Assembly: GCA_904419945.1 (NCBI GenBank)
Contig: CAJFTM010000001.1
Location: forward strand, 89,443 to 153,442
Length of the DNA: 64,000 bases
Direction of reading: 5' to 3'
DNA from: an uncultured Clostridia bacterium
GTDB taxonomy: Bacteria > Bacillota > Clostridia > Christensenellales > Borkfalkiaceae
The translations under genes were made by a program, and so were the position numbers. Below, piece after piece: positions 49,728 to 52,780 of this stretch; within the stretch, counting starts at the first letter, position 1, and the number at the start of each line of letters is the position of its first letter. The notes beneath the pieces were generated by a model. That model did no database searches. It was not told the origin of the DNA and saw only the letters and a program-made list of their open reading frames with translations.

Positions 49728-49937
49728 GCTTGTAGAAGAAAACAACTTGCGGGGCGAGGGAACCAAGAGCGGAACGGGATGGGTAAGAACGCGCTGAATA
49801 TATGGCGGCAACAGGCGATCACCATAAGCGGATAGATCCCTATACAGTCATGCCGATGAGCGGGATCGAGCTTCCCTTGACGAGGAAGGCAAAAATTTGC
49901 AAACGATCACAGAAAGGAATAGAAGGAGGACAATCCA

Positions 49938-51029
49938 ATGAATTTTACGTATTATATGCCGGTGCGCGTTGTTGCGGGCGAAGACTGTGTTCAAAAGAAT
50001 GCTGCGCTGTTCGCTCCGTTCGGTACCCGTGCGCTGATCGTTACGGGAAAGAGCTCGGCTAAAAACGGGGCGCTGGAAGATATTTTCCGTGTTTTGCGGC
50101 AGAATGGGCAGGAATTTGCTGTTTTCAATGAGATCGAGGCCAATCCGTCCGTAGCGACGGTGCAAAAAGGGGGATTGTTCGCCCGTTCCTTTGGAGCGGA
50201 TTTTATCGTGGCGGCGGGCGGCGGTTCGCCGATGGATGCGGCCAAGGCGATCGCGCTGTGTGCGCGGCAGGATGTCGCCGATATCTTTTCGCATCCGATC
50301 GGGGAAGACGTACTTCCCATGATCCACATTCCAACGACGGCCGGAACGGGCAGCGAGGTCACACAGTATTCGATCTTGACGGATGACGTGTCGCAGACAA
50401 AGCGCAGCATCGCGGCTCCGCAGCTTTTTCCGAAAATCGCCTTTTTGGACGGGAAATATATGGAGGATTTGCCGCAATCGGTTACGGTGAACACGGCGCT
50501 TGACGCGGTTTCTCATGCGGTCGAAGGGATGTTGTCCGTGCGGGCAAATCTTTTTTCGGATGCGCTCGCGCGGGAAAGTTTGCGGTTGCTTTTCGGTGAG
50601 TATTCCGCCTTGCGGGCTGGGGTATATGCGCGGGCAGATCGTCAAATGTTGTTGTATGGCGCTGCGCTTGCGGGCATGGTCATCGCCAATACGGGGACGA
50701 CACCCGTACACGGCATGGGGTATTCGCTCACCTATTTCCGAGGGGTTCCGCACGGCAGGGCAAACGGGCTGTTGCTGCCCGCTTTTTTGGAGGCCTGTAA
50801 AGGTAAGGTTCCGCGGCGCGTAAGTGCGATCTGTGAGGCGTTGGGGATGGATCTCCCTGCTTTTTCGCAAAAAGTTGACGATTTGATCGGGCCGCGGGAT
50901 GTATACAGTGAGGCGGAGCTGCGCGATTACGCGGCTCGTGCAGCGAAAAATCGCAATGTAAAAAATTACCTTGCAGAATTTTCGGAAGAGGAGCTGTTTG
51001 AGGTGCTGTGCCGATCGGTGGGCGGCTAA
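49938..51029 (+). CDS. Iron-containing alcohol dehydrogenase
   Basis: A 363-residue group III alcohol dehydrogenase. The nucleotide loop is AAGGGSPMDAAKAIAL, followed by HIPTTAGTGSEVT; metal ligands are Asp in NTALDAVSHAVEG (with His) and His in TTPVHGMGYSLTYFRGVPHGRANGLLLP. It interconverts an alcohol or aldehyde using NAD(P)H in fermentation. Substrate unknown. ATG follows AAGGAGG. The ~210 bases upstream show no clear promoter. Confidence 0.92.
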   Translation: MNFTYYMPVRVVAGEDCVQKNAALFAPFGTRALIVTGKSSAKNGALEDIFRVLRQNGQEFAVFNEIEANPSVATVQKGGLFARSFGADFIVAAGGGSPMDAAKAIALCARQDVADIFSHPIGEDVLPMIHIPTTAGTGSEVTQYSILTDDVSQTKRSIAAPQLFPKIAFLDGKYMEDLPQSVTVNTALDAVSHAVEGMLSVRANLFSDALARESLRLLFGEYSALRAGVYARADRQMLLYGAALAGMVIANTGTTPVHGMGYSLTYFRGVPHGRANGLLLPAFLEACKGKVPRRVSAICEALGMDLPAFSQKVDDLIGPRDVYSEAELRDYAARAAKNRNVKNYLAEFSEEELFEVLCRSVGG

Positions 51030-51146: not shown

Positions 51147-51175
51147 TTGTCATGTGCCTTTCTGCGTGCTATAAT
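51147..51175 (+). promoter_or_regulatory. Promoter of the uL15-like membrane protein
   Basis: TTGTCA (51147-51152), 17-bp spacer, TATAAT (51170-51175). Confidence 0.65.
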
Positions 51176-51210
51176 AGGCGCATGAGTTTGCCTTGGGGAG
51201 GGTCCGTGCG

Positions 51211-52620
51211 TTGGTTTTCATTGATTCCGTTCTTGCCTCTGTTTGGGAAATGCTGCGCGGAGTTCCGTGGCAGTGGTATGTTGCGTTGGCGGCAGGCCTC
51301 GGTGCGGCGGCGCTCGTTGCCGGTTTGCTGATTCGTGCCTGCTCTTTCCGGCTGATCTTGCATCTCGGGGGAGGCAAGACCGTATGCGAGAGGCATCCGG
51401 GCGATCACAAACTCGAGTTGGTCTCGCCTCCGCCGCGCAAGGGGTATCGCTTTATTGGCTGGTTTCGCGATGAAGCGTGTACGGAGCCGGTCACCGGCGT
51501 GTTGCGCGTACCGCGCCGCGGAGCAGAGCTTTATGCTCGCTGGAAGGCGGTGCTTCCGGTCGATACATCGCATGTCAGGGTGTCGCGGCAAACGTTCCCG
51601 GAGACACATCCGGCGGACCAATCGGAGGCTCGGCCGGTTGCGGTATGCACGCCCTTTCAATCCTCCTCGGCTCTGAGCCCCGAAGAGGATGATGGCGATT
51701 TTACGCGCGCTCTGCTCACTTCTGCGTCGGGTGAACTCATTTTTATTCGTCGCCGGCGCAGTTTTTTGGCGCGCATGGCGCTTGCCGATAGTGCGGTACA
51801 GGGATATTTTGGCGAAGTGCGCGCGGCGCTTTTGTCGCGTAAAGGTGTCCGCGAACGCGTCGGATGGGGAGGGGCGAGCTACATGGCAGGGCGCGCGGTC
51901 CTCGCCCGCGTCACGGCCAATACCAAGAGTCTCGTCGTCTTTTTTGCACTGGACCCGCGCGAAGCGCTTCAGTCCGGTGTTCGCTTTACGGATATGTCGG
52001 AACGGAAACGATATGCGGCTGTACCTGTCCGCTGTAAAGTTACCGGGCAGCGCACTTTGCGCTCTGTGTTGGTGCTCATTCAAAGGTTGGCGGATTCTCG
52101 CGGCCTTGCAACGGGGGGGCGGCCGGCAGCATTTGACTTTCCGCCCGCGGACAGTCAGATCCTTGCAGCGCGCGGCTTGATCAAGATCAGCGCGAGAAAA
52201 GAAAACGGCGAAGCGGTTTCCGGGGAAGAGCTGCACGCTTTGCTCTCTGCGGGTGCTACGCTTGAAAAGTTTTCATCCTCCTTTTTGCTTCGCCGCATGG
52301 GCCGAAAAGCGGCGCGCGGTTTATTAGGGGATAGCATTGTTTTGCCTGATTTTCATGAAACGGTCGGCCGATCTTCGGCCGCGCGCGCTCTGATCAATTT
52401 AGATACTATTGCGGCTCATTTTGCGGAGGGGGAACATGTCGATTTGGAGTCCCTGCGCGAGAAGGGGCTTGTCGATCGGCGCGCAACAGAATGTAAAGTG
52501 CTGGCCAGAGGCGGGTTGGACAAGGCTCTCACGGTGGAGGCGGAAGAATTTTCCCTTGCGGCGGAACGGCTCATCGCTTTGACGGGCGGAAAGGTTGTGA
52601 GGGTGCATCGGAACAAATAG
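51211..52620 (+). CDS. Membrane protein with InlB B-repeat and C-terminal ribosomal uL15-like domain
   Basis: A 469-residue multidomain protein. One membrane helix (about 20-44) is followed by an InlB B-type repeat (GYRFIGWFRDEACTEPV...GAELYARWKA, about 72-110), a disordered linker, a conserved domain (SFLARMALADSAVQGYFGEVRAAL...FFALDPREA, about 175-310) that I remember from membrane proteins of uncultured Clostridia, and a last ~76 residues that read like ribosomal protein uL15 (INLDTIAAHFAEGEHVDLESL, then KVLARGGLDKALTVEAEEFS and AAERLIALTGGKV). A uL15 module on a membrane protein is unexpected. TTG at 51211 is chosen: GGGGAGGG lies 8 bases upstream. Function unknown; possible ribosome or RNA contact is inference. 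Confidence 0.75.
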   Translation: MVFIDSVLASVWEMLRGVPWQWYVALAAGLGAAALVAGLLIRACSFRLILHLGGGKTVCERHPGDHKLELVSPPPRKGYRFIGWFRDEACTEPVTGVLRVPRRGAELYARWKAVLPVDTSHVRVSRQTFPETHPADQSEARPVAVCTPFQSSSALSPEEDDGDFTRALLTSASGELIFIRRRRSFLARMALADSAVQGYFGEVRAALLSRKGVRERVGWGGASYMAGRAVLARVTANTKSLVVFFALDPREALQSGVRFTDMSERKRYAAVPVRCKVTGQRTLRSVLVLIQRLADSRGLATGGRPAAFDFPPADSQILAARGLIKISARKENGEAVSGEELHALLSAGATLEKFSSSFLLRRMGRKAARGLLGDSIVLPDFHETVGRSSAARALINLDTIAAHFAEGEHVDLESLREKGLVDRRATECKVLARGGLDKALTVEAEEFSLAAERLIALTGGKVVRVHRNK

Positions 52621-52692: not shown

Positions 52693-52721
52693 GGTCCGCC
52701 TGAAAGGGCGGATCTTTTTTT
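52693..52721 (+). terminator. Terminator of the uL15-like gene
   Basis: GGTCCGCC (52693-52700) pairs with GGCGGATC (52707-52714), followed by seven T. Confidence 0.85.
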
Positions 52722-52741: not shown

Positions 52742-52780
52742 TTGACATATTGTATATAGTGTATATAATGTATATATACA
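52742..52780 (+). promoter_or_regulatory. Promoter and repeated operator of the GntR/ABC operon
   Basis: TTGACA (52742-52747), 16-bp spacer, TATAAT (52764-52769). TGTATATA occurs three times at 9-base steps (52751, 52760, 52769), the last forming the palindrome TGTATATATACA. This is a likely autoregulatory site for the GntR protein. Confidence 0.7.

Follow-up and report, generated by a model that had tools for sequence, protein, structure and literature searches.

The window, a 64,000-nucleotide stretch of DNA from an uncultured Clostridia bacterium, contains an open reading frame at 51211-52620 (+) whose product was suggested to join a membrane helix to the C-terminal half of ribosomal protein uL15. 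This raises the questions of whether the C-terminal part is truly derived from uL15, on which side of the membrane it lies, and what such a domain could do outside the ribosome.

Reading frame and domain organization

The open reading frame is intact, and the frame and coordinates given in the earlier note are correct. TTG 51211 was preferred as the start over TTG 51193 because GGGGAGGG lies 8 nt before it; at the longer in-frame TTG 51193, no equally placed Shine-Dalgarno sequence was found in the start region. The features of the gene and its product are as follows.

51147-51175 (+): promoter-like site TTGTCA-17-TATAAT with extended TG, 11 of 12 consensus letters, where 0.8 sites of such quality are expected by chance in the region
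51195-51202 (+): Shine-Dalgarno GGGGAGGG, 8 nt 5' of TTG 51211, read from the sequence
51211-51276 (+): short N-terminal segment, predicted outside, with few Lys/Arg before the helix and Lys/Arg after it
51277-51333 (+): single membrane helix YVALAAGLGAAALVAGLLI, hydropathy 2.21, one Lys/Arg before and three after
51346-51540 (+): InlB B-repeat (Listeria-Bacteroides repeat), predicted cytoplasmic, PF09479 20.7-22.7 bits
51541-51735 (+): linker, non-acidic in the window protein; almost all relatives have a strongly acidic one
51736-52191 (+): putative YdhG/YjbR-like (frataxin-like, double-wing) domain, 1.8e-48 with the family's own profile, with fold matches and weak Pfam matches
52192-52371 (+): helical hinge, with the motif VSV.EA..LISD..A..LI in the relatives, taken from the alignment
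52372-52617 (+): uL15 C-terminal-domain homologue, Pfam core 52393-52599, PF00828 E=1.5e-12
~52693-52721: hairpin GTCCGCC-TGAAA-GGGCGGATC with a T-run after it, downstream of the open reading frame, read from the sequence

The window member is atypical in its charges. The stretch from the helix to the YdhG-like domain has a net charge of +2 in the window protein versus a mean of -33 in the relatives, whose linkers have a median length of 149 aa with 30% Asp/Glu. The uL15-like domain has a net charge of 0 (mean of the relatives +5.7), and the YdhG-like domain has a net charge of +17 (mean of the relatives +9.7).

The C-terminal domain is homologous to uL15

The last ~76 residues had been described as uL15-like, and the profile searches agreed. 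PF00828 matched the C-terminus of the window protein with 48.1 bits (cut-off 21.5, E=1.5e-12) over profile positions 2-72 of 72, which excludes a chance match. TIGR01071 (rplO) matched at E=1.6e-10 over profile positions 70-143 of 144 only, and its score is under the full-length cut-off because the C-terminal half alone is present. The best PDB sequence matches of the window protein were Gram-positive uL15 chains, and in the PDB a profile built from 47 relatives matched, at E <= 1e-3, only ribosomal chains of the uL15/eL18 type. The host genome also has a complete, separate rplO (G000:C4:33491-33700), for which the earlier note had advised a search.

Structures were modelled for the window protein (mean pLDDT 52.6) and for one relative, L170 (mean pLDDT 61.2), and the confidence of the models is modest because the alignments had only three rows. 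The uL15 part of the window model was poor. For the L170 model, uL15 chains were the top Foldseek matches with a probability of 1.00 but an E-value of 0.02, and with VIA Z of 4.4-4.7, the pLDDT of this region being low. Judged by the sequence profiles, the last ~75 residues are confirmed as a true uL15 C-terminal domain with a similarity beyond chance.

Departure from ribosomal uL15

In an alignment of 58 ribosomal and 72 non-ribosomal uL15 copies, 18 columns were conserved in both sets. The non-ribosomal copies have fixed letters of their own, LARG (LGNG in the ribosomal set) and KMIxL. The ribosomal motif VKAxKFS, in which the two Lys are found in 81% and 66% of the copies, is replaced by VEAxDFS (K57 to Glu in 61%, K60 to Asp in 61%), and the window protein carries VEAEEFS at these positions. 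In a tree of 82 columns, one branch (100/98) divides the non-ribosomal copies from ribosomal uL15, which is consistent with one old origin of the former. The fixed letters and the single split together argue that the domain is under its own constraint and is no decaying copy.

The N-terminal extension of uL15 threads into 23S rRNA. This basic, Gly-rich extension was absent from all 72 non-ribosomal copies, the window protein included. Since the rRNA-threading N-terminus is missing and two conserved basic positions are reversed, docking at the rRNA site of uL15 in the 50S subunit is unlikely. The ribosome contact suggested in the earlier note is therefore unsupported. The possibility that the C-terminal domain serves as a ribosomal uL15 was dropped, as the N-terminus is missing and the basic positions of VKAxKFS are not kept.

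One rplO in the set, L036 (G186:C167), was unlike that of its own family and grouped in the tree with rows from outside the family; it comes from a draft genome with four PF00828 matches and is probably a contamination.

The middle domain

The middle domain had been regarded as a clostridial domain of unknown function. Models together with weak Pfam matches now suggest a YdhG/YjbR-like fold for it. The window protein did not reach the Pfam cut-offs for YjbR (PF04237), DUF1801 (PF08818) or DUF5655 (PF18899); its match to DUF1801 had 12.9 bits (cut-off 27.2, E=0.15). Among the relatives, the best of the weak Pfam matches were to DUF5655 (1.9e-5) and YjbR (0.0045). Since a search of PDB sequences with the profile of the YdhG-like domain gave no match, the fold was recognised through predicted structures and weak Pfam matches only. 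In the window model, with a pLDDT of 68-82 over much of the domain, E. coli YjbR ranked first structurally and uL15 from a 50S precursor ranked second, both at weak E-values. The L170 model had a pLDDT of 79-92 over the domain (residues 11-120), and its VIA Z was 8.5-8.8 to 9t2w, 2oc6, 2a1v and 2fki (YdhG/DUF1801, DUF419 and YjbR; 97-106 residues, 2.8-3.5 Å); a Z of 8-9 is close to what unrelated small folds commonly reach. The phage T4 MotA DNA-binding domain (Z 6.7-7.1) and frataxins (Z 5.6-6.0) were lower matches. Because the weak sequence matches and the fold matches agree, we assign the domain with good but not complete confidence to a predicted YdhG/YjbR-like (double-wing, frataxin-like) fold.

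YjbR proteins have been argued to bind DNA by the double wing, like MotA (PMC7641849). An iron-chaperone role by analogy to YdhG and frataxin is disfavoured, since the middle domain is strongly basic while the iron binding of YdhG has been attributed to acidic residues (PMC10855754).

A second YdhG-like domain of the host genome, L173 (G000:C20:20475-20924, minus strand), stands without a uL15 domain in its own 200-aa frame. The frame starts about 17 nt past the stop of another frame, whose product combines repeats of the surface type with a helix and an Ala/Glu linker; the arrangement points either to a frameshift or to a surface protein that has been separated from its tail.

Membrane topology

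The single membrane helix proposed earlier was found again, as was the InlB B-repeat, which is just under the PF09479 cut-off of 27 in the window protein and above it in the relatives L066 (30.6 bits) and L150 (77.5 bits). Counted over the 15 residues that flank the last helix ahead of the tail, Lys/Arg averaged 0.4 on the N-terminal side and 3.9 on the C-terminal side, and all 35 proteins compared showed a bias in this direction. The giant members have the order N-terminal signal peptide, outside region, helix, RKKK and tail. There are also helix-free members with complete ends, and the tail of one relative (L152) contains a zinc ribbon. These four observations strongly indicate that the tail lies in the cytoplasm. 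An extracellular tail was dropped, as the Lys/Arg counts place the C-terminus inside in all 35 proteins.

The earlier note had remarked that the sides of the InlB and uL15 parts conflict. L150, which is from another family of the host order, has a signal peptide and a helix (599-617) followed immediately by InlB repeats on the inner side, and this order of helix and repeat is that of the window protein. The InlB repeat of the window protein is predicted to lie on the cytoplasmic side as well. With both parts inside, as the Lys/Arg bias and the order in L150 suggest, the conflict disappears.

Distribution, architectures and gene context

A search with the whole protein among 201 genomes of the host's taxonomic family returned two recurrent regions, residues ~175-332 and ~395-473, and 62 of these genomes had at least two PF00828 domains. 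As relatives we collected 70 non-ribosomal proteins with a uL15 domain, of which the host family supplied 50 and other families of the order 20. In 69 of the 70 the protein ends no more than 30 residues after the uL15-like domain, which forms the extreme C-terminus; the upstream YdhG-like domain of about 155 aa is present in 60, and at least one membrane helix precedes the tail in 57, with none in eight that have complete frames. Four architectures were found: single-pass proteins of ~380-610 aa that resemble the window protein; giants of 874 to ~5,400 aa, in which extended repeat regions precede at least one helix and the tail; multi-pass proteins; and a few soluble ones. The giants whose start lies within the retrieved stretch carry a signal peptide. 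Several relatives (L084, L085, L091, L098, L100, L102 and L156) have a hydrophobic hairpin and a second helix (APL..LL...P.GQI) between the first helix and the tail; this region, common to many giants, seems to be a separate, conserved membrane module.

Among 121 genomes of the order, the module was found in 10 of the 33 sampled families (f1, f3, f6, f8, f9, f16, f19, f24, f29 and f32). In the search of 342 genomes of the class, the roughly 320 outside the order had at most one match each, always of ribosomal length among the frames listed; in the search of 249 genomes of the phylum, about 240 of them outside the class, each genome likewise had at most one match, and the frames listed measured 146-213 aa. 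Within this sample the module is confined to the host order. A search for related loci among genome contigs returned one locus, with a match confined to the InlB repeat, and plasmid sequences gave no match. Viral contigs yielded one useful relative, the host-like fragment L170 (IMGVR_UViG_3300032007_003637, filed as viral), a surface protein of more than 1,600 aa with two YdhG-like copies and a uL15-like tail; its contig was probably either misfiled or taken from host DNA that flanks a provirus.

Within the genus, flanks were read for 14 relatives, and in every one the gene immediately upstream, in the same orientation, encodes an iron alcohol dehydrogenase (49923-51026 in the window); the downstream genes for a GntR regulator and an ABC transporter are also kept in several. 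The operon of these downstream genes is preceded by a perfect sigma-70 consensus at 52742-52769 (12 of 12 letters, spacer 16). Since the window gene has a promoter-like site of its own, the conserved neighbourhood yields no functional lead. It does bear on whether the protein could be a chimera of assembly or a one-off, functionless gene fusion. The host genome is a draft of 49 contigs, but the identical architecture and upstream gene in the 14 genus relatives and the spread over 10 families of the order refute this explanation, which we consider extremely improbable.

Possible function of the tail

We propose, with a probability of roughly 0.55, that the window gene encodes a bitopic protein with a repurposed cytoplasmic docking tail, whose uL15 C-terminal domain was taken once and spread, and whose partner is, by a slight preference, nucleic acid. 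The C-terminal ~300 residues would form this tail from the basic YdhG/YjbR-like domain, the helical hinge and the terminal non-ribosomal uL15 domain. The uL15 domain was most likely captured from uL15 once, early in the host order, and domain shuffling would then have distributed it among single-pass and multi-pass membrane proteins, giant surface proteins and a few soluble ones. We infer docking as the function of the tail, which may tie otherwise unrelated membrane proteins to a common cytoplasmic partner. Nucleic acid (DNA or RNA) is our slightly preferred partner, ahead of a protein scaffold and then of a ribosome tether, because the mean net charge of each domain is positive (+9.7 and +5.7) and because double-wing proteins offer a precedent for DNA binding. 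The window member fits the charge argument through its YdhG-like domain (+17) alone.

The same tail could act without RNA binding: by protein-protein docking, the uL15-like domain would connect proteins of the membrane and surface to a scaffold in the cytoplasm, with the acidic Pro/Glu linkers as spacers. The conserved basic residues of uL15 turned acidic, the newly fixed LARG and KMI and the long Glu-rich linkers all fit such a scaffold, and the module is joined to unrelated front halves in the fashion of an adapter domain. However, the average net charge of either tail domain is positive, the analysis turned up no candidate scaffold, and the iron alcohol dehydrogenase conserved in the genus indicates none, so that this explanation is possible but the less probable one. 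A tail that mimics uL15 and retains 50S subunits, or intermediates of their assembly, at the membrane would agree with the putative uL15-type fold, the 18 common columns and the cytoplasmic location. It is unlikely, since the extension that threads into 23S rRNA is missing in all 72 copies, charge is reversed at two conserved basic positions, and the uL15 site is already filled in mature ribosomes.

Returning to the docking tail with a nucleic-acid partner, a further step is doubtful: that through two repurposed domains of nucleic-acid type, a YjbR-like double wing and a uL15 domain, surface and membrane proteins across the order might physically link the outside of the cell with the nucleoid, with mRNA or with particles of ribosome assembly. 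If true, this would be a previously undescribed tether between the membrane and gene expression. More generally, the uL15 C-terminal domain is here a mobile module that most likely left the ribosome and was rebuilt on new conserved residues; throughout this order of bacteria with small genomes, giant surface proteins and other membrane proteins share it as their inner end. The ligand of the tail would reveal what these surface proteins anchor to inside the cell, and would document clearly that a domain of a ribosomal protein was recruited to structural or regulatory work. Annotation software may label such proteins as ribosomal protein uL15, which would be misleading.

Comparison with known systems

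To our knowledge, uL15 is usually regarded as a ribosome-only protein. A literature search, with most subscription journals outside its scope, found no paper that describes a uL15 domain in a membrane protein outside the ribosome. A 2023 update on what bacterial ribosomal proteins do beyond the ribosome names uL15 only once, in the list of the spc operon. The tail resembles ribosomal uL15 (rplO; PF00828/TIGR01071) in the sequence of the C-terminal domain, including the 18 common columns. It differs in having no N-terminal half that threads into rRNA, in its fusion to a membrane helix and a YdhG-like domain, in the change of Lys to Glu or Asp at two conserved positions, in the motifs LARG and KMI and in its separate branch. 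With archaeal and eukaryotic eL18 it shares the Ribosomal_L27A domain, the main body of eL18, and there is a weak match to NF003079 (E=1.9e-4); eL18, however, is a ribosomal subunit protein and scores below bacterial uL15.

The middle domain is probably similar in fold to YdhG/DUF1801, YjbR/MmcQ (DUF419), DUF5655 and the C-terminal domain of T4 MotA, with weak sequence matches, and it is basic, as are DNA-binding double-wing proteins; the window sequence nevertheless stays under every Pfam cut-off for YdhG, YjbR and DUF5655. We know of no YdhG/YjbR-type domain joined to uL15 or forming the tail of a membrane protein. With InlB B-repeat surface proteins the window protein has the PF09479 repeat in common, but its repeat directly follows the helix and is predicted to lie on the cytoplasmic side.
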